From Sinohyriopsis cumingii (Eukaryota > Mollusca > Bivalvia > Unionida > Unionidae): DNA of 64,000 nucleotides. Both the position numbers and the translations under genes were made by a program. The notes beneath the pieces were generated by a model. The model did not search any database. It was not told the DNA's origin and worked only from the letters and a program-made list of their open reading frames with translations. Location of the stretch: positions 186,001-250,000 of the forward strand of contig JAPYKE020000263.1 in NCBI GenBank assembly GCA_028554795.2. Reading direction: 5' to 3'. Positions 36,451 through 59,623 of this stretch are shown piece by piece; positions within the stretch are counted from its first letter, which is position 1, and the number at the start of each line of letters is the position of its first letter.

Positions 36451-36462
36451 CAGTAAGTAAGT
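36451..36462 (+). other. Microexon-like module, triplet TAA
   Basis: CAG-TAA-GTAAGT, followed by another TAA. The sequence can also be read as a donor starting directly after CA. If introns are phase 0 this triplet would be a stop, so it may be a terminal or dead module. It is the first module of the right block. Confidence 0.45.
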
Positions 36463-37314
36463 AATACATCTCTCTATTTTCTAACACTTAACCTAAACTT
36501 TCTTTTGCGAGAGAGAGCTAACGATTTTCCAATAACCTTGTTTTGAGTGTAAATAATACCGCGAAAAAAGCAAGAAAATGTCTGCAAAACCTCTGAAAGG
36601 GGAAAAGATCTAATTATACTGTGGACGATTTAATCTAAATCATCAATAACGGGCGGATGACCAACACAAAATTGATGCATGTAATATAAATATTGCATTA
36701 TTTGAGTTTGATTTATTTTTGTTACAATCTTACATTTGTTTGATTGTTCGTTATCATCCAGGATCATAATGTCGATTTATTTGTCGGAATTTTATGTCGG
36801 TATGACCAGAGAAGCAGTGGAATGTCATCAACTTGATCTTGTTGATCAAATTCTATTTGATGTCTGTTCAGAAAAACGGAATCCACCAGAAGAAGCTTTG
36901 TGCATATATAATTGTTTGTATAATTCGATTTCTTATTTCGTTTATCAAACTTTGTTTGAAATAATTTCCATATTTGACTGATATCGAGCCGTATATGATT
37001 ACCTTTTGCAAATATATTGTCGATACGCATTGGTAATATAATATGCATTTCATCATTTGTCTGGATTACATACCAAAATTTACATCTTTATAGATACATG
37101 CATGCATGCATATACATGTACATATACATACAGCTTACAAACATCCACGGATAATAAGATTCAGACATCCTAATCTTTTGGTGCAAGTTTGGTTCAATAC
37201 ACATTGAAATAGATACATATTTTGTTCACTGTTTATAAGAAATTGAGTTAGGCATGCATTGGTAGTATGAAAATATTGAATTTTGTTATCGTTTTCATTA
37301 TATTGTTTGCAAAA

Positions 37315-37326
37315 CAGTTGGTAAGT
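37315..37326 (+). other. Microexon-like module, triplet TTG
   Basis: CAG-TTG-GTAAGT, 864 bp after the previous module, with upstream TTTGCAAAACAG and downstream ATTACATCTC. Confidence 0.58.
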
Positions 37327-38334
37327 ATTACATCTCATCAGTTTCTAAAATTTCTAGAATTGTCATCAATGAAACAGTATATACAAATGAAGAAAATCTT
37401 ATTCCTTTCTTCCAAATAACCCATTTGTGTGTAAAATAATCATTTGAAAATAACACAAGAAACTACGAATATAAGTCTACTTCAGACGACGTAAGTTAAA
37501 TTATAGATCAGACTCAAATGATAAATTGTAGGTACCCTTTTTGATAGCAATTCTGTTATGCTGAGTTTATTTTCTATTCAGTAAAAATGTTAACATTTTT
37601 AGTGAATTTCATTAATTTCTTGTCATTATCCAGCAGGCAGCACTATTGGGTATCTTTCACTGTATGTCATGTAAATTGGTAAAAATATCCAGTAAACCTG
37701 GTCCACTTCAATCAGTTGCATCTCATCAGCACCAGATAATTTGACTTGTTTTATAGTTAGACATCTTTGAATTTATTTTCAATAGTATTTGTATTTTCCC
37801 GAATTACAAGTCTTTGAGAACATATTTTGATTCCTGGTATAATTGTATTTGTTACTTTATTTTTAATACTATTGTTTTGAAACAATTTCTAAGATGTAGT
37901 GCATTTCATCGCTATTTCTAGACTTTGTGCACTATATCAATTAATTTCTGAAACATGCGTTTTCATCCCAAACAAGACGAGCATGACTAATAATCAGGAA
38001 TGCATAACAAAATAAGCATCTTCATGCATCCATCATACACATAAGCGTGAATGTATTATTACATACATTCTACCATAAATATATAGAACAGATCATAGTC
38101 AACGGGACGAAGCTTGCTATAATAAATTTAGACAAGTACATCGAAAGAGATCCAACTATGGTTTGTTAATTTTTAAGAGCGAATTTAGTTGCATTATTAT
38201 AGAAGATATACCTCTAAAGTAAAGTTCATATAATTTGTACGTTGTAACACATATCCTCGTGTTCCTATTTGTATTGATATCAATAATCTTATTAATATTA
38301 TTTTTTTCTCTATTTCATTATATCATTCACGAAA

Positions 38335-38346
38335 CAGATGGTAAGT
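38335..38346 (+). other. Microexon-like module, triplet ATG
   Basis: CAG-ATG-GTAAGT behind TATCATTCACGAAACAG. The unit's downstream arm is cut after ATTGTTA, where a foreign insert with a BED-type zinc-finger fragment begins. Confidence 0.57.
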
Positions 38347-38508
38347 ATTGTTACGACTCAAAAACTATGCAACATAAAGAGCTAAACCAACAGGTTTTGT
38401 AAGTGTTAGGAAATAAATTTGATTATCAACATGAACTTGCAGTGTTTTCTCCAGCAAAGAAAAGAAAACAGAAATGGAAGGAAAATTATGCCGTCATATT
38501 TAGATTTT

Positions 38509-38736
38509 GCGTTTTGAAAATTGTGTAATTGTGATTTTTCTTTTGAGCCTGGAGGTGGCGATGGCATAACAAAGCATGAAAAAGCCAATACACACAAACT
38601 TGTTGATTCATCATTAACAACCCAGCCTGAACCTTCAATGTTTATATATACCAGAGAGTACCTTGCTATCATTGGATCGGAATATCATTTTAGCAAACTT
38701 CTTTTAAAAATGAAAAATTCTTTTTTCTGTTGCTAA
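38509..38736 (+). pseudogene. BED-type zinc-finger fragment
   Basis: In the frame through 38521 the residues read Cys-Asn-Cys-Asp-Phe-Ser, Gly-Gly-Gly-Asp, then Ile-Thr-Lys-His-Glu-Lys-Ala-Asn-Thr-His-Lys. This resembles BED/TTF-type fingers found in hAT-like transposases and ZBED genes. The first zinc-binding Cys position is TGA (38515-38517), a single-base change from TGT or TGC. About 70 codons remain open after it. It is a relic, and the family assignment is by motif shape only. Confidence 0.5.
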
Positions 38737-38898
38737 TGTTGCTGGCGATTTTTCCAGAGATCGAAATTTAAAGAATTACTAGTGTGCTAGACCTAAACAG
38801 TTTCGTAAGACAAAATCGCAAAGAAGTCAGATTATTGATGAACGATGGTGCATTTCAATTGATAATAATTATTAAAACAAACATGGTATGGAAAAGGC

Positions 38899-38907
38899 TG
38901 CTATAAA
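38899..38907 (+). promoter_or_regulatory. TATA-like box
   Basis: CTATAAATAG lies about 30 bp upstream of the hairpin arm that starts at 38930. The spacing is suggestive of a promoter; function is unproven. Confidence 0.3.
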
Positions 38908-38929
38908 TAGCCCGTTTCTGCATGTGAGC

Positions 38930-39006
38930 GTGTTGCAATCTTGCACCTTCACAATGACCACCCGAATGGAACTGTGTACCGCTCAGAAGGTGCAAGAGTG
39001 CAACAC
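38930..39006 (+). other. Long near-perfect hairpin
   Basis: The arms 38930-38950 and 38986-39006 are 21 nt each and pair at 20 positions, with a 35-nt loop. The core pairs TTGCACCTTC with GAAGGTGCAA. Possibilities are a miRNA-like precursor, the end of a foldback transposon, or a target of one. Confidence 0.6.
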
Positions 39007-40192
39007 ACGCATCGTTGACATTAAATAAGTATGTTATTGCCCTACATTACAGATTGTTGATGATTTTATAATTAGTTACATATGCATTAAAGTTTCAAAC
39101 TTCAGTATCTGTTCCTGAACAGCTGTAGTTTTATCTTAAGCAATCAGTAGTTTTGGGGTTGACAGCTATGAAAATTAGGTAACATCATATACCTGACGTT
39201 ACAAAAACAAAATTGATATACATAACAGTATTGTGTCTTGACATTTTGTAATGCTTGCTCTAATCGGTCATCTGAAACACAAAACCAAAGGATAGAGAAT
39301 CTGTAATTTTTCTTCCAATAACCTTCATTGTTGTAAATGAGTTAAAATTGAGAATATACTATAAAAATAGTATGTACAATTCAATAGTTGATAGTCAGAT
39401 CACAAGTTCTAGTTGGCTTTTATAGGAATATTGCTATAATGAGGGTTTTTTCCTGCTGCATTAGGAACATTAATTTCCCCCTTCATCAATCAGCGTCATG
39501 TCGCCATCCAACAATGTATTGTATGTGCGTTTGAGATTTTAGCCAGTAAACATGATTCAAGTGAAGGAACGTGATAACATCAGCATTGGATAATTGTATT
39601 CTTTATGTTGTTGTTTGAACTTTTTTTCCAATATACAAAAAAATATCCAACAAAATATGAAGCTTTGTTGCAGTATAATGAGCCATATCCTTCTTCAATT
39701 TCTTTTTAAGCTTACGAATTATGTTTGAAATTGTTTTATAAATTGAATGCTGCCCAGCTGTATATGAAGATATTTGCGCAACACGAATTTATTGATTTGT
39801 GAAACATAAGGTGTGTTTTCATCATAAACAAGCTGAGAACAGCTAATAAGTAGTGCTACATACCAAAATGTATATCTTCATGAGCAGACGCATACACATA
39901 AACTGGCATACATCCATACATACCTGTAATCATACAAATATTGAAACAGCCTAGTTTAAATTATAATATAATTAGACAAATATAGTAACAGAGATATGTT
40001 AATACATAACTTGTTGATAGTTAAATTGTATTATTATAGACTATGCATCTTGCAAGCGAAGTTGATTAAATTTCTAAATTCCAACACGTAATACCCACAT
40101 TGTTCCTGATTATACTTATATTAGTAGCTTGCTATTTGTAGCAACATGCTATAGAATTTGTTCTTTTCTATTTCACCCTTCACAGGCAGTAA

Positions 40193-40204
40193 GTATTATT
40201 TATA
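40193..40204 (+). other. Microexon-like module, triplet GCA
   Basis: CAG-GCA-GTAAGT. The acceptor arm is shortened (TTTCACCCTTCACAG) and is more pyrimidine-rich than most. Confidence 0.58.
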
Positions 40205-41156
40205 TCTCGGTATTCTCTAATACTTTGTCTAACAAACCAACATAGGCACAGGACCTAATTGTACAAAATCAGATGTTTTCATCCAATAACCTAGTATGCA
40301 AAATAATCCCAAGAGAAAACTGAAAAGAAAAAAAAACAACTGCAAAACATTTGAAAGATATCTAAGTTTTAAATGACATAAGATAAATCGCAAATAATAG
40401 ATGACAAATTATAGACGTCTTTGATAGCAACATTTGTATGAATATTTTCTTGCGTGTAACAAGATGTTTCGTTTCTTTTCTCTGATGATTCAACAACGTA
40501 ATATTCATATTTTTCACTAATTTTATGTCAGTTTTGAATTATCATGTGCACTTATCCAAATCAGGCAGTAAAACCTCTTAAGCATTGGATATTTTATTTT
40601 GCTCTTGACATTGTTGAATTTATTTCCAACATACTGCTAAGCTAAACCCAGCAGAACAATACTACTTTATTGCACATATAATGATTTATTTTCTCTTTTG
40701 TTTCTAGTTTGGTTTGACATAAATTAGTAGATTCCGTGCCATACAAACTACATGAATATTTTTCGCAAGTGTGCATTTTTATCATTAGTAAATTAAGAAC
40801 GAAGAATAATCAAGAATACTTACCATTATTCATATAATCATGGATACAGCCATGCACGAATATAAATAAACAGACATGCATCTTTCCATACAGGCTTTCA
40901 TACAAATATGGCAACATCTTAATATGTTGGAACAAATGTGTTATAATACAAACAAATATAGTGATATAGAATAATCATAGATAGCTTGTTGATGGTTAAG
41001 AAGGAATCAATTATAGTGTTGTAGGGAATAAACCTAACAGGTAAAATAAATATAATTTCTCCATTACTACATACATCAGATCCTATTCTCATATTGATCA
41101 GTGGTATCGTTACTGATTTTTTCGTCCTCTTTTTTTTCATTATATTCTTCAACAAA

Positions 41157-41168
41157 TAGAAAGTAAGT
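41157..41168 (+). other. Microexon-like module, triplet AAA
   Basis: TAG-AAA-GTAAGT, 964 bp after the previous one, with TTCTTCAACAAATAG upstream. Confidence 0.55.
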
Positions 41169-42119
41169 AAACTATCTCGACATTTTCCATTACTTGATCC
41201 AAACAGTAATAAGTAAGAGTAACAACCTAATTATTCTACGGATAACCTTAATTTGAGTATAAATAATCCCTGAGAAATAAACTGATGGAGAAATTTGGGA
41301 AACTACAATACGAAACAACTGGTCTAACCATATTTTACAAGACATAAGCTAAATAAAGTAGGTCAAATGACAAATTTAAGACTCCCTTCATAGCAAAATC
41401 ATTATGTTTGATTTGTTTTATTTTAAGTAGCAATCTGAATATGTTTGGTTTATTTTTCATTTTCATCAATGAACGTAATCTCTTTAATATCTAATAATTA
41501 ACTAGTTATCTTATTGTTACAATTGTATTTGAATTTGATGCCAAAATGTCATAACAATTTTCTCTATACTTCAGTTAATTTTAGTTTAGGTCCTTCAATT
41601 TGTTTGTCAAATTTATTTTTAAAAATTTGAATATCTTAATTTATATCTAATTTTTTTAAAACAAAATACCTTCCAAAAGTGAATTTCGTCCTAGAGTATG
41701 TAAAAGACTTTATGCAAATATTTTCTTTAATTTCCGAAACACATTGTGGCTTTTCATCACGAACAATTACAGAATGCCTAATACTTATTTAATATATACA
41801 AAACTTCATTTCTTCATGGATATATGCATGCATGCACACATCATTAGATACATATTCATATAAATATTGGATCACCCAAGTCTATGGGGATACGTTTTCA
41901 TATAATACATACAGACAAATACAATGAGACATATATAGTTATAAGTTGCTTGTTGATTGCTATAAAGGAATTTATTTGTGTTATTACTGTGGATCTATGT
42001 AATGAGTGAGGCTGATGTCCATTACAACACATTATATCATCATATTCCTTTCAATTTGATATTAATAAGAGGCATCCTATTAATAATTTCTTTCATTATT
42101 TGATCCTGTCCTTCTCAAA

Positions 42120-42131
42120 CAGTCCGTAAGT
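42120..42131 (+). other. Microexon-like module, triplet TCC
   Basis: CAG-TCC-GTAAGT, 963 bp after the previous module. The next unit has lost its module. Confidence 0.57.
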
Positions 42132-42419
42132 ATTATACCTCAAGACTTTCTAACACCTGCTATAAAGAGTTATGTACTGATTTAGCATGCAAGAAGCAAA
42201 ACGGATCCTTTTCTTCCACTGACAAATATTGTTGTGTATGCAAAATAATTCCAGAGAAATTACTGAATAAAAAGCTTCAAAAACTGAAAACAGGAAACAA
42301 AAGCTCTAATTATCCTGTAGACGAAATAGACCGAAACCATAGATAAGTGTCAGATGTTAAAGAAATTATAGGCGTCTTTGAAGTTATTATTGTCAAGCTG
42401 AGTTAATTTTCTTTATATT

Positions 42420-43235
42420 CATATGGTTTATTTTTTTCAACAAATTTTATTAAAAAAATAAGCAAATAGTTTAATTATGAAAGTTACAAAATGAAAATTT
42501 AAATGGAATTTACTGTATTACTAATTAAATCCAAAATAATTCCAAAAGTTATATCATAAGTTCTAAAGTATCAAGATCACGGAATGTACTGTTTTCCCAA
42601 CAGTCCTGGTGTATCACAATGACATGGTCCAGAACAACTTTGAGTAAATTCACAGTAGTCCCAGAATAATATTTTAGTCCAAGGAGTAATTTGAAATTCC
42701 AATAAATAGGCAAATGTTTCCGCTCAAATTATGTCATATGAGAAATATTAAATGTGCCTATACACTGCTACGCAAGAACATAAGAAATAAGAATCCGAAA
42801 TAGGAGTGAAAATATGTCCAGATCTTTCTTCTCATATGCACCCTTATGACCCTAAGAAGCAGTTTTCTCCTACGCCCTAAGTGACATTTTGGAACAATCC
42901 ACGTCGTAAAAGAGCCCACCTGACAGACCCATGCAATGGGAAATTGTCTTAATTTTTCTAAGAACGCACATGACCTCCCCAATGAGGAATTAAAACAAAC
43001 AAGTATACAGGATTATTGAGATTATTATTAATGATTGTAAACATCTTTTTTATGCAAAGAATAGGCACTGTTAGTATCTTAAAATAGAATAAATACCCGT
43101 GTTTAAAAATTGGCTACCTAATATTTTGTTTTTAGGTGATCATTAAAATTTATAATCGCAAACAAAATTATACATAAAACTGATACAGTCATATATCAAT
43201 AGTTACACAAAATATAGATATACATAACATTGTTA
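42420..43235. other. Unassigned foreign stretch in the array
   Basis: Unit homology is lost after TTGTCAAGCTGAGTTAATTT and resumes at AGATATACATAACATTGTTA. The interior is partly GC-richer (42750-42980) and carries no recognised motif. The following unit has lost its splice-like module. Confidence 0.5.
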
Positions 43236-44252
43236 GGATATCTAGTAAACATGATCCAGACCAATAGTCGAATCTAATGGGCATCACACAGTTCGAGTTT
43301 TTATTTTTTTCATAGTTTCTTTTAATTTATTTCAAAACACAATTGAATCTATCGGAATGTAAAAATATTCTTGCATGCTTATCCTTTTAAGCAACATCAT
43401 AGTCTATCTGAACAAGTAGGGAAAAAATGAGGAAAATTACTGCTGAAACTATGACCATGAAATAAGAAGCAACATAGCTATCAATACTGTAAGTTAAATG
43501 ATACCTAAGAGTCATATGACAATTTATACATGTTTCCATAGCACTAGAGTTATAGTTTCTTTTCTTTTCTGGAGTCATATTACTATGTATATTTTATTTA
43601 TATTTTTGTATCCAAAAATGTAATTCTGGCATTTATCTGACATAAGTTTGAAAATACATTCCGTTATCATGATCCAAATCAAGCAGTTGGTCCACATGTG
43701 AATCGAAAAATTTGATTTTCTCTGGTTAACTTTCTTTTTAATTTATTTCTAAAATAAGATGTATGCTAAATAGTGTGAGGTCTTTGTGTATATGCCACGA
43801 AGTATTGTATAGTTTAGTTTCTTATTTCAATTGTCGAATTTAGATTGACATAGTATTCAAACCTTAGTGCAACCCCGTAGTATATGAAGACGTTAATTTG
43901 TGAAACATACGTTGCATTTGAATCACACATTGCGAACCACTAATAACATGAAACATTCAAAATTACACATCTTCATGAATGCGTGGATACAAATAAACAA
44001 ACGTAAGTCTTTATATACATTCATGGATTAAAATATTGGAAAATCCTAGAATATAATGTAGTTATAATAAACGAGACACATATAGCGAAGTAGATATAGT
44101 AATACAAAGCTTCTTGTATATATCTGTGAAGTAAAATTGATATAATTTCTCTACTACAACACATAAAATTCAGTTTCAGTGTTTACTGATTTTAGTTGCA
44201 TTATATTATTAACGTCGTCTTTTCGTTCTTTTTCATTACATCCAACATAATA

Positions 44253-44264
44253 CAGACAGTAAGT
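44253..44264 (+). other. Microexon-like module, triplet ACA
   Basis: CAG-ACA-GTAAGT after CATCCAACATAATACAG. It is 2133 bp from the previous module because of the foreign stretch at 42.4-43.2 kb and a module-removing deletion. Confidence 0.56.
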
Positions 44265-45664
44265 AATACCTCAACATTATATATTATTTACTCAGAACAT
44301 TCATCTAAGAAAACGAGCAAAAGGGTTTAAAATCTAATGATTTTTCTTAACGTATCTTTGTATTTTTTATAAAACATTCATGAAAAAGAAATAAATGAAG
44401 GAAAATGTGAAAGAATAAATATGTATAACTATAGTGTAGACGCTGAAACGTAAATCATACATTGGTAGTAGTTAGATCTAAAATAAATTATGGATTCCTT
44501 TTGGCCGCAATTTTGCTTTGTTTCGTTTGTTTCGTTTTCTGTAACAAAGTTAATATGTTAAGTTAATTTCTCGTTATCACGCAGCAACATAATGTCGTTA
44601 TCTTTCACTATATTGTATGTAAGTATGTTACTATATGCAATGAACATGAGCCGAATAATTATTTGAGAATTTTTTATCTTATTTAAAAGTTTTCTTTTTT
44701 TATTTTTCCCCCCAAAATCCATTGTTTTCATTACAATTTGAAGGTTTTATGCATATATAAAAATTCATTGAATACAATGTCTTATTATTTTATTTTATTT
44801 TTGATTTCGTTTAAAATAATTTCTAAAATTGAGTATAATAAAGACCTCATACAACTATATATATTTGCGAAATTCAAAGTCATTGCTTTTTATACGCAAG
44901 ATAAGAATGACCAATAACCAGTAGTAAATACCAAAATATATAAATTTATAGATGAATGCATCTACCCATTCACATAAATAAACATGGATATGGTGCTAAT
45001 CTAATATTGAATTTGTGCTCCATGTCATCGATCTGAAAAATAAAGGCATATGGTTTACACCAAATATATCCCTATAATGTCTTGCTGGTCCGAAATTAAA
45101 ATGGTGGTGTCAAACTTACATCCAGAAAATCCACCACAGCAGCTAATTTGAAAAACATCACTCAATTTGATGGAATCTTATTTATTTTGTTGCTTAATGT
45201 CCATTGGAATTATTTCCAAAATGATATCATATCCAGCAGAGTGTGGAGGCTCTGTGCACATATAACGATTTATTGTATAATTCAGCTTCTTTACTTTCTC
45301 ATACTTTGTTTTAAATAATTTAAATTCAATGTTGTCTGGCAGTATCTGAATACTTTTTGCAATTATATTGATTCATTTACAAAGCAATATGTATGTTCAT
45401 CTTTGACAAATAACTACCAGGAATAAATACCAAACTATATCTTAAGAGTGATTCAAACATACACGCATACACTTAAACTTACCTACATCCTAACATACAT
45501 ACATGCATAAAACTATCACATCATTCTTGTACACATTAAGACATTTTTCTCATAATATGTGGTGATAAGTGTAGTGCAAGACATAGAACCTTAATAGGTT
45601 TCTGATTGTTACAAATGAGTTCAGTTGAATTTTCTCCCTCTTTTTCATCCTATTCTTCACAAAA

Positions 45665-45676
45665 CAGTATGTAAGT
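45665..45676 (+). other. Microexon-like module, triplet TAT
   Basis: CAG-TAT-GTAAGT after TATTCTTCACAAAACAG and before ATTATATCTAAAC. Both arms are close to consensus. Confidence 0.58.
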
Positions 45677-46500
45677 ATTATATCTAAACTCTGGCCAATA
45701 TTTATATAACAGGCAGAACATGAGAGTAGAGGCTCTTATTTATTTTTAATAAAAATCTTGTTTTCTGTTAAGAATAATCCTGATTAAACAAACACCTGAA
45801 GAGAACACTGCATACATGGTAAAAGAGAAAACAAAATATATAGTTACATTGCAACCAATTTTAGCTTAAGTCATAGATGAGAGCCAGATGAGGAATTATA
45901 GATGACATTGAAAGAAGTGTTGTTATATTTAATTTACTTTCTTTTCTGTAACAATAGTCATATGTTTTGTTTATTTTCATTATCATCCATAAACGTAATG
46001 CTTGTATGTACGTTTTCTGTTACATCTAGGAAATAGTATATGTAAAGTTAAATTTCTTATTTGATTTTTCAAAATTCTGTTTGTAAAAATTTCCTATGTT
46101 TAGTACAATCAGACAGTATGTAAAGACTTTGTGAAATATATTGACACATTTGCAACACATAACATTCATTATTATAACAAACAAATTGAGAAGGATTAAT
46201 AACCAGGAATACATAACATAATACTATTTTCATGGATACATGCATGCACACATATATACATAAACATAAATCCACATATAACCAGTCTATTTGAACAAGT
46301 TTGATCTGATACGAAAAATGCAGTTAAATAAATACAGCCTTACACAAAATAATCTATTTATGATATAGGATATATCAAACACGAAGATTTAATATAATTT
46401 CTCCATCGCAACACATAATATCATATTACTGTCTATATTGATATTAATGAATATTATTGTTTTTTATTTTCATTTTCTATTCATTATATCTTTCCAAAAA

Positions 46501-46512
46501 CAGCCCGTAAGT
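46501..46512 (+). other. Microexon-like module, triplet CCC
   Basis: CAG-CCC-GTAAGT. An all-C triplet inside a strongly AT-rich unit is notable. Confidence 0.58.
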
Positions 46513-47163
46513 ACTATGAATCTAATTCATTTAATTCAAACAGTATACTTTCATCAGCATGATATAAATTTGTTTTTATCTTGTACTCAATAATTTGTTT
46601 AAATTTATTGATAGAATAAGGTGCATCCAGTTATAGGCAAAAGCTTTGTGTACATATAATAATCCATTTCATATTTCATTGTATCTCAATTCTGCAATTG
46701 TGTTTTAAATAATTTCCAGACATGAATGGCACTGATTAGAAGATGAAGACCATTTTGTGGATATATTGATTCATTTGTGAAACATGTGTTTGTTTATCAT
46801 ACACAGTTAAGTACGAGTAATTGCAAGTAATTCCAAAAATACATGTCGTGATGGATATAAGGGATCATCGCATACACATTAACATCCATTCATCGTTACA
46901 AATATACATGGGATGAAATATACTTGAACGTCCTAATCTATCTGAACAGTAGATAGAAATATGATGAAAGAGGTATAACCATACATAACTGTTGAGAGTT
47001 AAGAATGCATGTATAGTTATTACTATGGAGGCTACACCAAACCAAGATGATATAATTTCTCCCTGCAACACATCATGTCATTAAGTTTCTATTCATCTGA
47101 TATTAATCACTGTTATCTTATGATTGATTTTTTGTCGTCTTTTTCACGATATCCTTCGCAAAC

Positions 47164-47175
47164 CAGCGCGTAAGT
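47164..47175 (+). other. Microexon-like module, triplet CGC
   Basis: CAG-CGC-GTAAGT, only 663 bp after the previous module, with ATATCCTTCGCAAACCAG upstream. Confidence 0.58.
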
Positions 47176-47464
47176 ATATCTCCCAGCAATGGATAATGCT
47201 TGTTTGAGACAGTTGCCTGAGAGATAGAAATTAAGAGTTGGGAATCAGTTTTTTTATATAATTTCCAATACCAATCTTTTCTGTGTTAAAATGTCCCTCA
47301 GAAACAATTTTTGAAGCATTCAGAAACTGTGAAAGAAGAAACAAGATATACAACTGATCAGAAATGATGGAAGCTAAAGTGATGCATTAGGCTCTGATGA
47401 TAATTACATTATAGATGTCCTTGATATGAATAATATGTTCCCTTTAGTTTATTTTCCTTTCGCT

Positions 47465-47600
47465 AACATGAGCATGCGAGACTGTTAGGCAGTAGTTTCC
47501 AACGGGTCGATGGTTCTTTTTCAGTCTCCCTTGGTTCTTCCTCCACCAAATGTATAGGCATCCGTGTATATCATATCATATGCTTCAATCTGTCGCAATA
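47465..47600 (+). mobile_element. Old degenerate SINE fragment
   Basis: Diverged SINE body: GTTCTTCCTCCACCAAATGT and a mutated GTGTATATCATATCATATGC match the conserved body segments of the intact copies, preceded by GGGTCGATGGTTCTTT. No head or tail is visible. Its divergence shows that the family has been active over a long period. Confidence 0.75.
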
Positions 47601-48333
47601 ATCCCAAAATATCAAGCTTTTCCTTTCTATAGCAATATACATCTCTTTAGTTTGTGTTTTCATACAAGAATATAATTTCGAGGTGTTTTACTGAATGTTA
47701 TGCCAATTGCAATTATATTCATTAACAATATCCGAATCAGTCAGTGGAATCTTATAAGTATCAAATAATTTCTCATTCTATCTTGTTTAATATTGCTTTG
47801 AAATTGTTTCTACACCTTGATGTATCTAGCGGAATATTAAGGGTTTGTTCATGTATAGTGGTTCTTCGGAAGTTTGTTTTGGATTATTTTCCGAATTTTG
47901 TTTGAAATAAGTTCCAAACGTTAGCGCTATGCAACAATATATGAAGACATGAAAATATATCAATAGCTTTCTACAACATAACGCATTTGTATCCTGTTTA
48001 TTGTGAGAACTATAAATCTTGTTGGATACATGCATGTACGCATCAATATACATGGACAAGCACAATTACACATGCATGCAGATGTTGGACAATGTTAGTC
48101 TGTAAGAAGAAGTTTCCTAGAATACCTAACGTACATGTAGTAAAGGAGATATAGGTACACGCAGCTTTTGATATTAAGAAGGGATTTAGTTATTATATTA
48201 TATAGATTCCACCTGACAAGTAAAACTTATAATATGTCACCATTACAATATAAATGATTTTCCTCATGTTTGCACTAATTAGTGATAACATTGTATTGAT
48301 CGTTTTCTTATTTTTTATTATATCCTTCAAAAA

Positions 48334-48345: not shown

Positions 48346-49361
48346 ATTTTATATAGCAACATTGTGTAATACTCACATAAGAAGTCATTAAATAGATCAA
48401 AAGAGACGAAAATCTATTTTTTATCCTCTAGTAACCATGTTTGCTATGTAAACTAAAACGCGGACGAAAAACAACCGAAGAAACAGTTTCCGAAACTATG
48501 AAAAAACACATCATATTTAACTGTATTGTTGACAATATAAGCCAAATGACATATCATAATCAGATGACAAAACATATATTGACATCTTTGATAGCAATAT
48601 TTCTATGTTAACGTTACTTTACTCTCTGTAACAGTATCAATGTGAGTAGGTGTTTTCCACTATCATCCAGCAACCTAATGTTGTTATCTTTCTCTGTCAT
48701 TTATTCAAAGTTGGAAGTTTGTCATGTGAAAATAAATCAATCAGTAAAATCTAGTGAGCTTTGGATACCTGTTTCTGTTCTCAAGTTAGGTTTGAATTTA
48801 TTTCCAAAATTATTCGTATCTATCAGAATTTGAATCCTTTTTACACGTATTGAAATGCATATTTTCAGTTCCTTATTTCGTTTGTTTAATAATATTTTTA
48901 TATTAAAAATTTGTGCTGTACGCTGCTAATGAAGACTTTGTGCTGATATATGGATACATCTGCGAAACATACCATATATTTTCATTATAAACAAGTTGAA
49001 AACAAGTTATAAGCAGGAACAAATACCAAAGTAGATATATTGCTGGATACGTGCATTGATGCATACACATAAATAATCATACATCATTATCTAAATACAC
49101 GGAAACATATTGTATCATCATATTCTATTTAAACAAGTTATAACATATACAAGCAAATGTAATGCAAGACACATAGCCACAGAGCTTGTTGATTGTGAAG
49201 ATGGAATTGAGTTGTGTCGTTAGTGAGAAGATGCCTGACAAATAAATTTGATATAATTTCTCTATTATAAGACACATTACATTCTTTCTATTTATACTAA
49301 TAATGAACGGTCGTATCATGTTACTGATTTGTTGTTCTTTATCATTATACCCTTCACAAAA

Positions 49362-49373
49362 CAGGTAGTAAGT
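49362..49373 (+). other. Microexon-like module, triplet GTA
   Basis: CAG-GTA-GTAAGT. A GT directly after the acceptor gives a competing donor (GTAGTA), though the downstream GTAAGT is much stronger. Confidence 0.57.
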
Positions 49374-50368
49374 ATTACATCTCAACATTTTATTGTACTT
49401 GCTCAAAATGCATTCACAAGACAGAAGAAACTTGGACATAATTTTATTTTTCCTCTTCGAATAACTTTTCTTTTTGTGTCTATGATCACAGCTGGGAAAG
49501 GTCTTAGAGACCAAGCAGCGTATCTAACCGTACTGCAGATTATGTAATCTAATCTTAGACATGAGTTATGTTACAAATACATTATACATGCCTTTTTATA
49601 TAAATATTGTTATTTTGAGCATATTTTCATGTCTGTGACAAGATGAATATTTTATTTTTTGTCATCCAGCATCTGAACGTCAGGATACTTTACTGATTTA
49701 TATAAATTGGCAATTATATTATACCCTGTAAATATGATCCAAATCGATCAGCTGTGACTTATTTGATGATTTGAGATTTACCTTGTTCAAATTGTGTTTA
49801 AATTTATTTTCAAAATAAGTTCTATCCAACTCGATGTTAGTGTGCACACGTGATTCAGTGTTTAATTCAATTTCTTGTTTCATTTGTGAATTTTGTTTGG
49901 AATGATATGCAAAAATACAGTACTGTCCATGAGTATATGAAGATTGTATGAAAATATAGCGATTTCATTCATTTGTGAAATATAAGATGCTTTTATCATA
50001 AAACAAAGTGAGAACATCAAATATCTAGGAATATATATCGATTACATATTCATGGATACATGCACTCACGCATAAACATAAACATGTAAATACATTAAAA
50101 CATACACAAACATAACAATATTGGGATATCCCAGTCGATTAGAAAGTTCGTTATAATACATTGACACACATATTGAAAGAGATAAATCAATATATTAGCT
50201 TATTGGCTGCTCACAGGGATTTGTTATATTGTTGTAGAGGATACATCAAATATCTGAAGTTGATATAATTACTCTATTCAAGCGCATGATATCGTTTCTG
50301 TTTATAATGATATTAATCTGCAGTATCATTGATTTGGTATTTTCTTTTACATCCTATCATTCACAAAA

Positions 50369-50380
50369 CAGCGAGTAAGT
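50369..50380 (+). other. Microexon-like module, triplet CGA
   Basis: CAG-CGA-GTAAGT, 1007 bp after the previous module, behind ATCATTCACAAAACAG. Confidence 0.58.
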
Positions 50381-51097
50381 ATTATATCTGGACATTTTCT
50401 AATGCTTTCTCTGAACATCAATCCAAGAGACAGAAACGATAAGAAAATCAGATATTTTCTTTTTGTAATGAACTTGTTTTGTGTGTAAAGTATTCCCAAA
50501 GAGAAACCTCTGAAGAAAAACTGCAGAAACTTTGAAAGAAGAAAACAACAGATCTAACTATCCGTTAGATAACTTCAGCCAAACCATAAATGAGAGTCAG
50601 AGTACAGAAAAATTATCGACACCTTTCGAGGACCAAATTGTAATATTTAATTTATTTTGTTTTGTGCAACAATATTCATTGCATGTTGTTTGTTTTGTTT
50701 TTTTTCGTTTTTGGTTATCATCAAGCAACGTAATATCTGCATGTTCCATTGAATTGTGTCGGTTTACAATTACATGGCGTAAACATGATCCGAACAAGTC
50801 CGTAGACCTGTTGGGCATTGGATAATTTCAGATTTTATCATGTTGTAAGTTTTTATCTTTTTGAATATATTTACAAAATTAGTTGACTCTAGGGGAATGT
50901 GAAGGCTTTGTGTGCATATAACGATTCACTGAATAGTTCAGGTTTTTGGTTTTCTTAATATTATTGAAATAACGTGAAATTTAAGTACGATTCAGCTGTA
51001 TATGAAGACTTTATGCAAAGTGCCGATTCATTTGTGAAACAAAACATTCGTTTTCGTTTTTCTGATATTGTGTTTCTGTTCTTCATTATATTAAAAA

Positions 51098-51109
51098 CAG
51101 GCAGTAAGT
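51098..51109 (+). other. Microexon-like module, triplet GCA
   Basis: CAG-GCA-GTAAGT after CTTCATTATATTAAAAACAG. It has the same triplet as the module at 40193. Confidence 0.57.
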
Positions 51110-51762
51110 ATTATACCTTGATATTTTCTAATACCTTAAGCATCCAACCAAGACACACAACACAAAAGAATCAACTCTGATTTGCCTTTTTCAATGACAC
51201 TGTTTCATGTCCAAAATAATACCCGATAAACAACTGAGGAAGAACACTGCATAACCTGTGAAGGAGTGAACGACTGAGCTGACTGTACTGTAGACGGTGT
51301 AAGCTATGTCATTGGCACTGAGTCAGTTGACAGCACTAATAATGTTTTGATATGATTAGCGTTATCTGTAGTTTATTTTATTTTCTGTAACAAAATTAAT
51401 ATCGGTATATTTCATGCAATACTATATCACTTTGCTTCATTCAAATTATGCACTGAAGTTTCATCAGTATCAGATAATTTGTATTTTATCTTTCTGTGCA
51501 AAGTTTTGTTAGAATGTAATTCGAAAATAAATTGTAATCACCAGACTATGATTGCTTTAATGCTTGTTTAATGATCCATTGAATAATTCAATTTCTTATT
51601 TCCTTTTGAACTATCTTTCTTATAATTTTTTAATTGAGTGATTTTTAGTTGTATATGAAGACTTTGTGCAAATATATAGACTGAGTTCAGAACACAACAT
51701 TCAATTTCATTATGAACATGATTAGAAGGACTAATAACCAGGAATGCATACCAAAATACACT

Positions 51763-51763
<1 letters not shown>

Positions 51764-51794
<31 letters not shown>

Positions 51795-51825
51795 CATACA
51801 TACATACATACATGTACATACATAC
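51764..51825. repeat. (CATA)n microsatellite
   Basis: CATA/TACA tetranucleotide repeat that has expanded from the unit's own TACATGCATGCATACAC landmark. Confidence 0.97.
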
Positions 51826-52078
51826 ACAACGATATCGAACATCTAAGTCTATGGAGACCGGTTGTAATGCATTCAGAAATTGAGTGAAATTTTTTAACTA
51901 TACATTGCTTGATGGCTGTTAGCAAGGAATCAAATTAATGTATTATACCGGATAAACCTAACAAGATTGATATAATTTCTCAGTTACAAAACATCACCAT
52001 GTTCTTGTTTAAATTGATAAGAATATCATCGTATAATTGATTTATATTGTCCTCTGTTTGATTGTATCGCTCACAAAA

Positions 52079-52090
52079 CAGGTGGTAAGT
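52079..52090 (+). other. Microexon-like module, triplet GTG
   Basis: CAG-GTG-GTAAGT after GTATCGCTCACAAAACAG, 981 bp from the previous module. Confidence 0.58.
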
Positions 52091-53105
52091 ATCATATCTT
52101 AACATTTTCTATGATTTGCTCTAAACTGTGATCAAACAGATGGAACAAAAGAGTGACTCTATGATTTGTGTTATTATAATTACCTTGCATTTATGTGTTA
52201 AGTAATGAGCCAAAACGTTATAAACAAAATAATTAAATTATAATATGACAATGCAAGCTAAATGAATTGAAAGAGCTTCATGACAGGTCATATATAACTT
52301 TGATAGCAATATTGTTTTTTAAAAATATATTTTCTTGTCTGTAGCAGCAGTAATATGTTTATTTATGTGTAATTTTCTCACTATCATCCAGCGATTTAAT
52401 TGAGGAGACTTTCACTGAATTTTATATTGCTTTGAAATTGAATCCAGCAAAACGTATCCGAATCAATAAGAACAATCTCTTCAACTTTGGATAACTTTTG
52501 TCTTGCTGTTCAAAATTTATTTTTATTTGATGTATTAGTTGAATTTACGAGACTGTTAATGCTTTCTACACATATAATGATTCAGTGATGAATTAAATTG
52601 TTTCTTTAATTTGCTAATTTTTATTCAAATAATTTCCAAACCTTTGTTGCCATTCAGCAGTATATGCGGCCTTTATGGAAAAATATAGATTTATATGTGA
52701 AATATTATGTGGATTTTCACGGTAAAATTGTAGTGTTGAATAACGAAGAAAAATACCAAATTAGATATCTTCGTGGATACATGCATGCACGCATACGCAC
52801 AAATAAGCATACATCGAAACATGCATAAATACAAACAATATAAAATAATTATAGTTTATGGGGACTCGATTGTTACAATATGAACAACAAATATATTGAC
52901 AGATATATAACTATTCATAGCTTATTGGTTATTTCGAAACATTTTAGTTATTTTATTTTAAAGTGTACAACTTGACAGGTAAAGATTATTGTATTATTCA
53001 ATAAAGCAAATTATATCATAATGTTCCTATTTAAATTGATAGTAAGGCAACTTTATCATGTTATTAATCTCATATGTTTGTATATTTCATTAAATCCTTC
53101 AAACA

Positions 53106-53117
53106 TAGCATGTAAGT
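53106..53117 (+). other. Microexon-like module, triplet CAT
   Basis: TAG-CAT-GTAAGT after ATCCTTCAAACATAG. Confidence 0.56.
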
Positions 53118-53645
53118 ATTATTTAAATATATTCTGATTCCTGCTTTAGCAGTCATCAAAGTGAATAAGTAGTAGAAAATCTAATTGATTTATTATTTTG
53201 CATAACGCAATTATCTGTAAAATAAAACCGGGCAAAAATTTTAAGAAACAATTGCCGAAACTGTGAAAGAAGAAACATCTTAAACTAACTCATAGGTGAG
53301 TGCTGGATGACAAATAAATTATAGACACTATCGATAGCAATAATTTGTTTAAATTATTTTCTCCTGCATAACAATGTTAATATGTTTTGTTTGTTTTTAT
53401 AATCTGGCAATGAAATCTTGATATTTTGTTCTTATTTTCTCTATCAATTTGTAACTATGTTAAGTAAATATGATACAACTCAAGCAGTAGAATGAGTTCA
53501 TTTGTATTATTATAGAGAATGCACCTAAAACACAGATATTTTTTTCTTTACAATACACATCTTTTTCCTTTTGTTGATATTGATAACAAATATTGATTTC
53601 TATTTTCTTCTGTTTCATTATCCCCCCCCCCCAAAAAAAACCCCA

Positions 53646-53657
53646 CAGGCTGTAAGT
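53646..53657 (+). other. Microexon-like module, triplet GCT
   Basis: CAG-GCT-GTAAGT, 540 bp after the previous module. The acceptor arm is replaced by a homopolymer tract (a C run, then an A run, then CCCCACAG). The module survives although its surroundings changed completely. Confidence 0.57.
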
Positions 53658-54323
53658 ATTATATCTCAATATTGTCTAGTGCTTGCCTTTTACATCCCTT
53701 TGCAATTAAAGCTAACAAGCATGATCTGAGTCAATCACTTTGACCTCATGCACATTGGATAATACGAGATTTTACCTTTTTTATTCAAATTTTCTTTCAA
53801 CTTTATTTTAAGATAAGGTGCATTAAACATATGTTATAAAGCTTTGTTTTAATTTTGTGATATTCGTTAGACGTAATTTCCAGAATAAAGTGCCATCTAG
53901 CAGTGTATTAAGTCTTTATGCAATTGTTAAACGTGTATTTACATCAAGAACAAGATGAGATCGACTAAGGACCATGGATATTTATTAAAATGCATACCTT
54001 CATTGATGACTGCATGCACTCATATGCAATCATATATCCGCACATGAATATATGCATATCATTATCGAAATATCATAGTCATTGCGATCAGATTTGTTGT
54101 AATACATTCAGCCGAATAATGTGAGCGACACGTAGCCAGATAAAGCTTATTGACTGTTAACCAATACATGTTTTTATTATAGTATAAACATGACAAGTAC
54201 AGTTGACATAATTTTTCCATTACGACACCTTGTATAAACATTTTTCTTGTTTTACAGATAGTAATTAGTAATATCGTATTGTTAATTTCATCTTTCTTAT
54301 TTTTCATTACATTCTTCTAAACA

Positions 54324-54335
54324 CAGACTGTAAGT
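54324..54335 (+). other. Microexon-like module, triplet ACT
   Basis: CAG-ACT-GTAAGT after ATTCTTCTAAACACAG. Its duplicate near 57435 is dead (AAG-ATT-ATAACT). Confidence 0.57.
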
Positions 54336-55319
54336 ACTATGTATTGGCATTTGCTGTTGCATGCTCTAATAGTCACCATAATTACAGAACAATACATTAG
54401 AAAATCTAATTGTTTTCTTTCAATAATCTTGTTTTGTGTGTAAAATTATCCCGAGAAAATCGAAGAAAATTGCAGAAACAGTGACAGAAGACACAAATCT
54501 AACCATAGTGTAGACGATATCATCTAGATCGTAGATAAACCGGAAGGCAAACAAATCTAATAGCAATATTTTTATGTTTATTTTTCTGCAACAGTAATAA
54601 TATGGCTTATTTTTCGTTACCCATGAATGTATTGTTAGTATTGTTCAGTGAATTTTGTACAAACTTGTGACTAATGCTAGGAATAATGATTTAAATGAAT
54701 CAGTGGAATTTCATTAGGGTTGATAGCTTGGTTTTTCTACCTCGTTCGTTAACTTTATTTGAATTTATTTCCAAAAATAATTATATCCAGCAGAATGTTA
54801 AGGCTTAGTGCACATATAATGATTCATTGTTAAATTAAATTTTATTGTAATATTTTGAGTTCCGATTGAAATAATTTCCGAAACGTAATCCTATCCAGCA
54901 ATACTTGCAGAATTTGTGCAACTGTATGAATTAGTTTATGAAATATAAGGTGTATGGTCACTATAAACAAGTTGAAAATGGAATTCATACCAAAAATATC
55001 CATCTTCATTGATACATGCATGCGTGCATAAAAGTAAGCATAAACATTCTTCCAGACTGGATGATATGAGGCTGTGGGAACATGTTTATGATATACAGAC
55101 GTATATAGAGAAGGATATGTATCCAGATATAGCCTGTTGATTGTTAATAAGGATGTTAGTTGTAGTTATACGGGAGGCACCAAAGAAATACAGCTGATAT
55201 AAGTTTGTCCTCCGCAACATATCATGTTTTTATTTATGCTCATATTAATCAGATCAGATATATCATGTTTTTGGCTTTTATTTTTTCCTCTTTTTCATTA
55301 TGATCTTCAAACAATACAA

Positions 55320-55331
55320 CAGGTTGTAAGT
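55320..55331 (+). other. Microexon-like module, triplet GTT
   Basis: CAG-GTT-GTAAGT. Its duplicate near 58358 has lost the acceptor and has GTAAAT as donor. Confidence 0.56.
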
Positions 55332-55742
55332 ATTACGTCTGGACATCTTGTAGTACTGCCTTTAAACAGTGATCTAAAAGACTGAAGGAAATATTATAAA
55401 ATCAGTTTTTTCAAACTTGCATACAGATTTTTTGTGTGAAATCAACGCCAGAAAAACATGTATGGAAAAATATTCAAATCTGTGAAGAAAAAAAAAATTA
55501 GATTTTACGATACTTTAGATCATGCATGCTATATCATAGAACACAGCCAGGTCACAAACAGATTATAGAGTAATGGAGTATTTTAGATATAGCCATACAT
55601 AGCATGGTGGTTCTTAAAAGAAGGAATTTAAGTAAAGTTGTTATAATTTCTCCATTAAAATAAATTATATCATTTTGCTATTAATAGTGATATTTATTAG
55701 CATCATTATTTTCACGTCTTCTTTTTCATTATTTCCTTAAAA

Positions 55743-55754
55743 AAGCGAGTAAGT
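55743..55754 (+). other. Microexon-like module, triplet CGA
   Basis: AAG-CGA-GTAAGT, only 423 bp after the previous module. It has A at -3 and an A-rich arm (CCTTAAAAAAG). A duplicate at 56584 is dead. Confidence 0.5.
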
Positions 55755-57036
55755 ATATCTCAACCTTTTCTTATATTTTTGATGACGGGTCATCAGTGAT
55801 ATAGAACAAAACAGTTGAAATGTTCTTTGATAAAACGAAACAGTATTTCGAACTATACTGTAAATGATGTTAGCTAAAACAAAAACAAGAGTCAGATGAC
55901 AAATAAATTATAATTTTCTTTAACGGCAATATTGTTAAATTTTGCTATATTTTATTTTCTGTAACAACAATGACATGTGAAAGAAACACAAATCTGACAA
56001 TACTTTAGACTTTGTAAGCCTCATTATAGAAAAGTCTGACAGCAAATTTTAGATGTGTCTGATATCAATATGTTTAATCTATTTTTTTCCTTTCCTGAAC
56101 ACTTTTACCATCCTTTTTCTTAAACTCGTATTAATCAAATCTGTTAAAGAACTGTATTTTTTTCCCTCTTTCATTATGTTCTATAAAAAAAACAGTTGAC
56201 AAATATAAATCTGGACATTTGGTAATAATTTAAATAATGATCTAAGAGACAGAAGAAAAAAACATATATTAGAAAATCCGATTTTTATGTATGTAGAAAT
56301 GCACTTTTCCTTGCTTAGCTACACGCGGGAAATTATCGAACAACCTAGTGTATGAGAACAAGTCTTCTAGAATACACATAAACAAACAAATGAAGTAAAT
56401 TACCATACAAAGCTTGGTGATTCTTCAAAGAATGAATTAACTTAGACTATTAGTGAGGATGCACAAACAAGTAAATTTGATATGATTTATCCATTAAAGT
56501 AAATTATATCATATTGCTATTAATTGTGATATTTATTAGCATCATTATTGTTACTTCTTCTTTTTCATAATTTCCTTAAAAAGCAGCAATTAAATATGAA
56601 ATTTCAACTTGTATTATATTTTTATGACGGGTCATCAGGGATACCGAACAAAAGAGTTGAAATGTTCTTTGAAGAAAAAATACTGCAAATCATGTTCGCT
56701 AAAACATAAACAAGAGTCAGAAGACAAATAAATTATAATTGTCTTTAAAAGCAATATTGTTCTATTCCGCTATATTTTATTTTCTGTAACAATAATGACA
56801 TTTTTTTATTTTTGCATGATCATTCATCAAAATGATGTTGGAATCTTACACTGACTTTGATATTAATTTGTTATTATAATCAGTAAACATGACCAGACTC
56901 GAGCAGTGGAGTCCGCATGAATGAAAACGTCATATTATATGTGTACTTTTTTCGTTCACTTCATACAGACGACTATTGTGAAAGTCATATCGACATACAT
57001 AGATTATTGATTGTTAATAAGGAATACAGTTATACT

Positions 57037-57040
<4 letters not shown>

Positions 57041-57106
<66 letters not shown>
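57041..57106. repeat. (TA)n microsatellite
   Basis: Pure TA repeat just upstream of the GGG module at 57162. Confidence 0.98.
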
Positions 57107-57108
<2 letters not shown>

Positions 57109-57161
57109 CTTAGTCTTTTGTTCTTATGTACTTTCATTTTTTCATTATATCCTTCACTTAA

Positions 57162-57173
57162 CAGGGGGTAAGT
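57162..57173 (+). other. Microexon-like module, triplet GGG
   Basis: CAG-GGG-GTAAGT behind ATATCCTTCACTTAACAG. It lies just after a (TA)n tract at 57041-57106. Confidence 0.56.
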
Positions 57174-58086
57174 ATTTTATAGCAACATTTTCTAAGGTTT
57201 CCCTTAAAGAGCCACTTAAGAGACAGAACCTACGAGTAAATGATCAAACTTTTTTCATCAAATAGTGTTGGTCAGTCTCCGATAAAATAAAAATAAAAAA
57301 CGAATGCCGAAAATTTGAACGAAAACACAAATCTGACTATACCTTAGACTTTGTAAGCCTTATCATATAAACGTCTGACTACAAATTTTAGATGTGTCTG
57401 ATATCAATATGTTTAATCTGTTTGTTTTCCAAAGAAGATTATAACTATTATATCTCAACATTTTCTTTTGCATGATTTAAATAGTCATCTTACTTCTAGA
57501 ACATGAAATTAAAAAGTATAATTGTTTTCTTCCAATGACCCTATTTTGTGTGTAAATAATCCTTTAGAATAAAAAAACGAGGAAAAATTTCAAAAATTTT
57601 GAAAGAAGAAACATGTCTAACCGTAGTGATGATGATATAATCTAGATCATAGATAAACAAATTATAGACTTCTTTGGTAGCAATATTTTTATATTTAGTT
57701 TATTTTTTTAGAAAAAATATTAATATGGTCATTTTATTTATTGCTACACAGTTATGCAGTATTAGTACCAGTCAGTGAATTTTGTATACGTTTGTGACTG
57801 TATCCAGGAAACATGATTTAAATGAATCGGTGGAATTTCATTAGCATTATATACCTTGGTTTCGCTATCTAATTCTTGAAATTTATTGAATCTGTTTCCA
57901 AAATAAGTTATATCGAACAGAATCTTAAGGCCTTGTGTACATATAACGATTCAATTTATGTTTTTAATTAAATTCTATTTTAATTGTTCGAGTTTGAAAA
58001 AATTTCCAAAATTGTGTCCTACTTGGCAGTACTTGTCGAATCTGTGCAATTATATGATTTCATTTATAAAATGAACCGTAGATGTT

Positions 58087-58090
<4 letters not shown>

Positions 58091-58154
<64 letters not shown>
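58091..58154. repeat. (TA)n microsatellite
   Basis: Pure TA repeat within the decayed duplicate at 57.4-58.8 kb. Confidence 0.98.
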
Positions 58155-58157
<3 letters not shown>

Positions 58158-59611
58158 GAAATAGATATAGCCAGCTATAGTTAGCTGATTGGTAAGAAGG
58201 AATTTAGTTGCATTGTTAATCAGAACACAGCCAGGAAAACAAAATGTTGATATAATTTGTACTCTTCAAAACATACCATGTTGTTACTTATATTAATCAA
58301 ATCAGTTATAGAAATGTAATTTTGTACGTTGTTCTTGTTTAATTATGTTCTTAAAAATGGTTGGTAAATATATATCTGGACATTTTGTCATACTGCCTTT
58401 AAATAATCATCTAAGAGACAGATTTTTTTTAATAGAAAATCCGATTTTGATGTACATAGAAATGCACTTTTATTTGGTTACCTACACGCGGGAATGTATT
58501 GGAACATCCTAGTTTATAAGAATGAGTGTTTAAGAATACACACAAACAAACAATTGAAGTAAATTACATATAGCCATACATAGCTTGGTGATTCTTCAAA
58601 GAAGGAATTTACTTATAGTATTAGTGCGGACACACAACAAGTAAAGTTGATATAATTTATCCATTAAAGCAAAATATATCTTTTTGCTGTTACTAGTCAT
58701 ATTTATTTCGCTTTTGGTATTTGTATTCATCTGTTTTCATTATTTCATTCAAGAAACAGTGAAAAATGCAACTGTAGATCTAACTATACTGTAAACGATT
58801 TTAGCTAGAGCGTAAACAAGAGTCAGATGACACAAATTGTAAATATCTTTGATATCAATATTGTTATATTTGCTTTGCTTTATTTTCTGTAATAATTATC
58901 ACATTTTCAGCTTATTTTATTCATGATCATCCAGCAATATTTTATATCGGTATCGTTCACTGACCGAAACCAATTTCTGACTATATTCAGTAAACATAAT
59001 CCCAATGAGTCAGTGTAATCAACATGTATAAAACCCCACTAAAAAGCCATTTAAGAGACAGAACGTAAGAGTAAAGACTCGTACATTTTTCATCAAATAT
59101 TGTTGGTTTGTTCGTAAAATTATCCCTGATAAAAAATAAATATTACCGAAGTTGTCAAACAAGGAACAAGAAATCTGATTATACTTTATGTATGTCGTTG
59201 TCATTGATACAAATATTGTTATATTCAGGTTGTTTTTCGTTTCGTAAGAACATGAATGTATATAGTATATTTTTCGTCAAGCAACGTAATGCAAGTATTT
59301 ATTTATACTAAATTGTGTTATTTATATCCAGTAAAAATGTTCCAATTCAATATACCCTCATCATTATATGATTATTTGATTAGTTATCATTTTATTAAAA
59401 TTATATTTGCATTTATTAGCAAGATGTATTGTTATCTAATGGAATGTTAAGAAATTGTGCACATATATTAATTCATTTTATAATTCAACTTTTGTTTGTA
59501 ACAATTTCCAATATGTAGCGCTATCATTGGTATATGAACACTTTGTCACTCCTCATTATACTGATAATAATATTTATGTTGTGCTTCTCTTTCATAATAT
59601 CCATCACAGAT

Positions 59612-59623
59612 TAGCATGTAAGT
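59612..59623 (+). other. Microexon-like module, triplet CAT (last intact)
   Basis: TAG-CAT-GTAAGT followed by ATTATATCTCAAC. The next unit's module, near 60870, is broken. Confidence 0.56.

Follow-up and report, generated by a model that had tools for sequence, protein, structure and literature searches.

Micro-exon genes (MEGs) have been described in schistosomes and tapeworms, in which the small exons have lengths divisible by three and exon skipping can alter the protein in steps as small as a single residue (PMC7653826; PMC4350168). In the cited sections of these papers, MEGs are defined by at least seven exons, of which at least half are micro-exons (PMC7653826), alternative splicing yields protein variants, the products are secreted or gland-associated (PMC4350168), and these products change rapidly, with dN/dS above 1 for MEG-1, MEG-9, and MEG-15 (PMC4350168; PMC7653826). 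Here, we describe a stretch of 64,000 nucleotides (hereafter, the window) from the freshwater mussel Sinohyriopsis cumingii, located at C263:186001-250000, in which C263 denotes contig JAPYKE020000263.1 of the 2.9-Gb, 1138-contig assembly GCA_028554795.2. Very probably, the window contains a portion of at least one micro-exon gene with internal exons of 3 nt, one per tandem unit of ~1 kb, and each exon is most likely a complete codon (phase 0). As in the MEGs of the cited sections, tiny exons with a length divisible by three follow one another, here as 22 predicted 3-nt exons in succession; unlike in MEGs, every predicted exon has 3 nt, each duplicated unit carries one, and the copies number in the hundreds within periodic repeats. 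The exons of MEGs are small but vary in size, and the lineage of the MEG hosts probably differs from that of these arrays.

Tandem duplication and diversification of exon-intron units is known from Dscam-type clusters, in which each exon encodes a domain segment, whereas one codon per exon is predicted here. The bicycle and megacycle genes of aphids have exons that are longer than 3 nt and are not tandem copies of a single unit. These aphid genes resemble the present arrays in their many very small exons (more than 100 microexons in megacycle) and encode fast-evolving proteins, but the excerpted account gives almost all of the exons as phase 2 (PMC9168663). Exons of exactly 3 nt have been reported in Drosophila homothorax (PMC7392893), Drosophila TnT, and mouse Ncam (PMC8042270), in the cited passages as a single exon of an ordinary gene rather than as an array. 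Still shorter microexons of 1 nt are found in the plant genes APC11 and VPS55, the latter with conserved GTRAGT donors; as presented in the relevant part of that paper, they are single, conserved, and without an array (PMC8831610). Among the matches listed in a search of open-licence PubMed Central papers, none concerned arrays of single-codon exons. The author of a preliminary description of this stretch knew of no described gene built from dozens of 3-nt exons. We would regard the arrays as an extreme form of the micro-exon gene; if RNA confirms it, the layout is the most extreme of its kind known to us.

A pattern scan of both strands of the entire window identified 22 modules of the form [CTA]AG-NNN-GTAAGT, all on the + strand and none on the − strand, with CAG as the acceptor triplet in 18, TAG in three, and AAG in one; their positions were re-read. 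Simulated sequences of 24 kb (first-order Markov model, 60 runs) contained 0.23 modules on average and at most 2. Between positions 36,000 and 60,000, a gap of 3 between acceptor and donor occurs 22 times, compared with 4 occurrences for every other gap from 0 to 12 summed. The array containing the modules (array 2) and the triplets are as follows; the triplets were located by the module pattern, supplemented where stated by comparison of array copies.

36143..60951, + strand: array 2, tandem unit of ~1 kb with 30 module sites, 22 of them intact (pattern scan, flank profiles, and alignment)
36454..36456, + strand: triplet TAA of the first unit, the sole stop codon of the 22
37318..37320, + strand: predicted exon TTG
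38338..38340, + strand: predicted exon ATG
40186..40188, + strand: predicted exon GCA
41160..41162, + strand: predicted exon AAA, with a TAG acceptor
42123..42125, + strand: predicted exon TCC
44256..44258, + strand: predicted exon ACA
45668..45670, + strand: predicted exon TAT
46504..46506, + strand: predicted exon CCC
47167..47169, + strand: predicted exon CGC
48337..48339, + strand: predicted exon ATT (also array-copy comparison)
49365..49367, + strand: predicted exon GTA (also array-copy comparison)
50372..50374, + strand: predicted exon CGA (also array-copy comparison)
51101..51103, + strand: predicted exon GCA (also array-copy comparison)
52082..52084, + strand: predicted exon GTG
53109..53111, + strand: predicted exon CAT, with a TAG acceptor
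53649..53651, + strand: predicted exon GCT
54327..54329, + strand: predicted exon ACT
55323..55325, + strand: predicted exon GTT
55746..55748, + strand: predicted exon CGA, with an AAG acceptor
57165..57167, + strand: predicted exon GGG
59615..59617, + strand: predicted exon CAT, with a TAG acceptor

A second search used profiles of the sequence 45-350 nt upstream and downstream, with the module itself left out. This search identified 45 sites in the window, 29 in array 2 and 16 in a further array (array 1); together with one site at 56193, array 2 has 30 sites, of which 22 are intact and 8 degraded. The element AG-NNN-GTAAGT is kept in 22 of the 30 units, as against 8.5% predicted from the mean majority fraction of the unit (0.735; see below), with P ~9e-18, a value that is overstated, the profiles having been trained on the flanks of the same 22 intact units, which are somewhat favoured, so that the control is partial. 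All 22 single-strand modules with exact GTAAGT that had been reported earlier were found again at the same positions, with ~0.2 expected by chance. The earlier list of one module per unit had been selected on exact GTAAGT and missed the 8 degraded sites, and the array reported at 36-60 kb is real, but its unit family also takes up a large part of 1-28 kb and is found again beyond the window. At 58757, a unit lacks the donor, apparently through deletion, and its CAG acceptor is followed at once by TGA; this could be a terminal exon, if phase 0 applies, or plain decay.

The sequence around the triplets has the appearance of functional splice sites. The acceptor side of the unit contains a T-rich tract, commonly terminating in CACAAAACAG, and the donor GTAAGTAT fits the 5′ end of U1. 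An AG-exclusion zone upstream of the acceptor is a recognised mark of true 3′ splice sites; AG is absent from the 40 nt upstream of CAG in 20 of the 22 units, compared with a mean of 3.9 and a maximum of 12 of 22 elsewhere in the unit, a contrast whose P value is weakened by the common descent of the units. In the window and 44 partly overlapping loci, the arrangement AAACAG-gap-GTAAGTATTA has a gap of 3 in 32 of 32 cases, with zero occurrences of any other gap from 0 to 40. The sequence itself establishes conserved splice-like sites, the AG-free zone, the gap of 3, and a genome-wide unit family. A longer exon beginning at the nearest upstream AG was also considered and rejected: its lengths range from 8 to 120 nt and fall into mod-3 classes of 11, 5, and 6 units, giving no common frame.

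The units of ~1 kb are homologous along their whole length, with a mean majority fraction of 0.735 across the 999 columns of an alignment of 73 stretches; this alignment is gapped, since the units contain indels and an ungapped profile had overstated the unit-wide decay. The tree of 34 units resembles a star in which many terminal branches measure about 0.3, and neighbours in array 2 are no closer than distant units (Spearman -0.03). In the array 2 alignment, which comprises 20 of the 30 sites, the remainder having too little aligned flank, the triplet has a pairwise identity of 0.237, the lowest of 944 three-column windows (next lowest, 0.286), and the GTAAGTA immediately behind it has an identity of 0.919, the highest of 918 7-mers. 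When all stretches were pooled (41-43 span the module), the triplet was again the most variable window, with an entropy of 1.947 versus 1.675 for the next. Maximum-likelihood (ML) site rates were 2.4, 4.2, and 2.4 for the triplet, 0.14 and 0.14 for AG, and 0.04-0.45 for GTAAGTA, the slowest 7-mer, against an overall median of 0.91. The triplet is more diverse than expected at saturation under background composition (P=0.004), whereas under uniform composition it is not (P=0.17). The conserved donor, the variable triplet, and the AG-free zone fit true splice sites around 3-nt exons. The GC content of the triplets (47%) had been considered as a coding sign and was dropped, since 11.5% of three-column windows are equally high.

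Comparisons of closely related units show that some new units switch codon while their flanks are unchanged. On C10, eight units of 2.5 kb carry the triplets GGT (5), CAT (2), and CAC (1); units with GGT differ from those with CAT or CAC by 2-4% within 500 nt and by 2 or 3 triplet bases, and CAT differs from CAC by 1. Between -215 and +76, the three columns of the triplet are the only ones that vary among the eight, with 33 other variable columns within 500 nt (Fisher P 1.5e-4, conservative, being computed with 49). On C6, GCG and AAT units have 52 differences in 1337 positions, including all three triplet bases and nothing else between -37 and +45. By contrast, a 4-kb segment of array 2 is present in three copies that differ at 32-81 positions (0.8-2%), yet 4 of 4 triplets are identical, and many tandem units share a codon, such as GGT, CAC in five consecutive units on C10, and 22 GTG. 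The triplet site is therefore not simply hypermutable; the codons look selected, and diversifying selection may be acting on new units. Alternatively, the codons may be old and the introns homogenised by conversion, which predicts extra divergence beside the triplet; no such excess was seen, but constraint on the splice sites could hide it.

The unit family recurs elsewhere on C263 as well as on further contigs. In the assembly, the module pattern with at most 2 mismatches occurs at 503 places, compared with 5 for a reversed control, and exact ACAGNNNGTAAGTATTATAT occurs 301 times (A 90, T 72, G 82, C 57), compared with 8 for reversed patterns; a search for the module gave 0 matches in viral contigs and 0 in prokaryote contigs. 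The exact matches are mostly clustered on C6, C10, C12, and C263, and the lone ones (C5 twice, C11, and C12) are at control level. At least in parts, array 2 recurs near 1.21 and 2.12 Mb of C263, and at C263:0-214 kb every one of the 22 listed exact modules is GTG. None of the 301 exact modules contains a stop triplet, and all 13 sense codons beginning with T were seen, TTA only as the lone C11 match. With exact matches of eight arrays read in order, stops number 0/214 in frame 0, 27/206 in frame 1, and 2/206 in frame 2. The residue composition is skewed: the exact set lacks Glu and Gln and has just 2 Lys, although AAA and CAA do occur in variant-flank modules. The predicted peptides, from lists that omit variant-flank modules, are of low complexity: GFGFCHHHHHGGHGGHHGCC (C10), CPCGPTWPTSSANCGANCG... 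(C6), and GGCGCCGGCGCGGCHMCHGCHMSC... (C263:564-726 kb), with GFGFCHHHHHGGHGG and CGANCG as further strings predicted from codon orders. At C10:118.97-119.03 Mb and C263:564-726 kb, the codon orders would encode many His, Gly, Cys, and Met residues, a composition that a metal-binding peptide might have. The earlier proposal that each triplet is an exon and each unit an intron copy is supported by the conservation of the splice sites, the AG-exclusion zone, the gap of 3, the hundreds of genome copies, the 0 stops in 301, and the variability of array-2 triplets.

Several observations weigh against this interpretation. Of the 30 sites of array 2, 8 are degraded. Neither the window nor C263:250-450 kb yielded a recognisable first or last exon of conventional type, and in the latter interval the patterns tried gave no further module. 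When repeats were collapsed and five C263 blocks were dropped as copies, 83 array-codon pairs remained, for which the probability of 0 stops is 0.002 at background, 0.019 at uniform, and 0.045 at observed composition; NAR triplets are rare overall, so the absence of stops may partly be a residue preference. When the window's own 22 triplets are concatenated, frames 0, 1, and 2 contain 1, 1, and 0 stops, respectively, and with one TAA (36454) and a stop-free frame 2, phase 0 is not settled; codon-by-codon assembly of a peptide, as first suggested, is plausible, but this TAA lies within the array. By ML rate, the triplet sites rank only 26, 55, and 62 of 999, other windows being faster, and in array 1 alone 11 of 666 windows are as low as the triplet, with GTAAGTA at rank 40 of 609 7-mers. 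Two other unit pairs agree in direction with the C6 pair and are not significant: TGC and GGC units on C6 (126/1721 differences, 1/3 triplet bases) and ACT and TCG units on C12 (149/991 differences, 2/3 triplet bases). The C10 and C12 loci were chosen after their codon differences were known, so the pairs are illustrative, and the units are related by descent and hence non-independent.

Some of these points would be expected if the window held a former micro-exon gene that is now nonfunctional, with working arrays elsewhere. The 8 broken sites, the TAA, and the gypsy-like and short interspersed element (SINE)-like sequences around array 2 are in keeping with such decay, which we nevertheless consider rather unlikely, given 22 intact donors after ~0.3 substitutions per site per branch and four triplets kept in three copies. 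It is less probable still that the triplets are true 3-nt exons of an RNA that is not translated. The lack of a coding exon, the TAA, and the AT-rich surroundings would suit a non-coding transcript; the 0 stops among 301 modules and the uneven residues would not, and a non-coding exon would be free to leave a length of 3 nt, whereas the gap is always 3 in the sequence covered.

Recursive splicing, in which the modules would be ratchet points for the removal of a very long intron and the 3 nt a neutral by-product, is very improbable. Adjoining acceptors and donors, units set in long AT-rich DNA, and preserved splice signals would all be compatible with it. However, in ratchet points, or zero-nucleotide recursive splice sites, AG is immediately followed by GT with a gap of 0, and both at 36,000-60,000 and in the window plus 44 loci, gaps of 0 to 2 are absent and a gap of 3 is present. 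A by-product should also change at the rate of the unit, yet the triplet is the most variable window of array 2 and differs at all three bases between C6 units that are 96% identical; nor does recursive splicing predict a lack of stops.

We give hardly any credence to a mobile element or satellite whose copies insert head to tail, separated by random spacers of 3 nt, and in which the resemblance to splice sites would be coincidental. Serial insertion would leave near-identical bodies with differing 3-nt spacers, as seen here, and arrays on several contigs. Against it, the borders of arrays 1 and 2 lie mid-unit rather than at a module, although they may have been truncated by subsequent insertions; inspection by eye showed no inverted ends; conservation at the ends greatly exceeds the unit average despite a divergence of ~0.3 per branch; and neither the AG-exclusion zone and T-rich tract nor the absence of stops is predicted. 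Local hypermutability of the triplet in the absence of selection, which would account for whole-triplet replacement in young pairs, is the least credible explanation, as 4 of 4 triplets are constant in the three array copies 0.8-2% apart, GTG is repeated 22 times at C263:0-214 kb and CAC five times on C10, and triplet diversity exceeds saturation at background, though not at uniform, composition.

If the triplets are single-codon exons, each unit would comprise a T-rich stretch devoid of AG, an acceptor (CAG), a single free codon, and a donor (GTAAGTA) fitting U1, and the spliceosome would most likely recognise units by these intronic signals, the exon being too short to help, and would join the codons in genomic order. 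Units would multiply through tandem and segmental duplication, new units would be able to change their codon, and a broken unit would cost one residue without ever shifting the frame. From the sequence, we infer transcription, inclusion of the triplets in phase 0, and a short low-complexity peptide product. We lean slightly towards a broader model of a family of giant genes with one codon per exon, in which tandem duplication adds residues and rapid codon replacement rewrites new units, so that low-complexity peptides (e.g., Gly/His/Cys/Met-rich) may be lengthened, shortened, re-spelled, and possibly re-assorted by skipping, with no frameshift. If true, ~1 kb of intron would be spent per residue. 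Such arrays would lend themselves to testing how U1 and U2 recognise an exon that cannot accommodate both at once, including exon versus intron definition and the order in which dozens of introns are spliced. They would separate exon and intron evolution base by base and would show how whole protein families could go unnoticed by standard gene-finding and alignment programs.

The start of array 1 is part of a 9.66-kb periodic repeat, as judged from module positions at C263:1.5 to 197 kb, and positions 1-5765 and 9624-15433 of the window are duplicates with 97% identity, which fits this period. Among the 16 flank-found sites, some of which are recent duplicates, 4 have exact [CTA]AG-NNN-GTAAGT and 13 retain AG-NNN-GT; an extra site at 6639 has lost AG. 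The array and its modules are listed below.

1..27694, + strand: array 1, same unit family as array 2, with other sequence interspersed (flank profiles, alignment, and genome scan)
1372..1374, + strand: module GTG, duplicated at 11001-11003 (module pattern)
2427..2429, + strand: module CTC, GTTAGT donor, duplicated at 12056-12058 (flank profile)
3955..3957, + strand: module AAG, GTAAGC donor, copies at 13620 and 15735 (flank profile)
8612..8614, + strand: module CTG, donor GTGAAT, GTGAGT in sister copies on C263 (flank profile)
9445..9447, + strand: module CTC, GTGCTT (flank profile)
19153..19155, + strand: module CGC, GTAAGA (flank profile)
23185..23187, + strand: module GTG, TAG acceptor (module pattern)
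26617..26619, + strand: module TTT, GAG acceptor (flank profile)
27519..27521, + strand: module ATT (module pattern)

In the window, a search of Rfam gave no match at the gathering score, a tRNA search found none, and a GTAAGT at 34414 does not, by eye, resemble the unit family. When 10 of the 33 open reading frames (ORFs) of the window were compared with Pfam, only retroelement RNase H and integrase zinc-binding domains reached the cut-off. Between the arrays, positions 29313-31984 contain a broken gypsy-like pol, with RNase H and integrase above and protease below the cut-off. Similar tRNA-SINE-like repeats were recognised by eye at both borders of array 2 (36040-36145 and 60610-60775); a further SINE-like repeat, presumably of a type known from molluscs, lies at 61590-61830, and degenerate tandem repeats, mostly of 26-27 bp, extend from 62990 to 63999, the end of the window. 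Downstream, in C263:250-450 kb, the long ORFs among those listed are mostly transposon-like by eye, including Polinton/Maverick-like and long interspersed element (LINE)-like frames, and an open frame near C263:402 kb resembles, by eye, a Roc-type GTPase.

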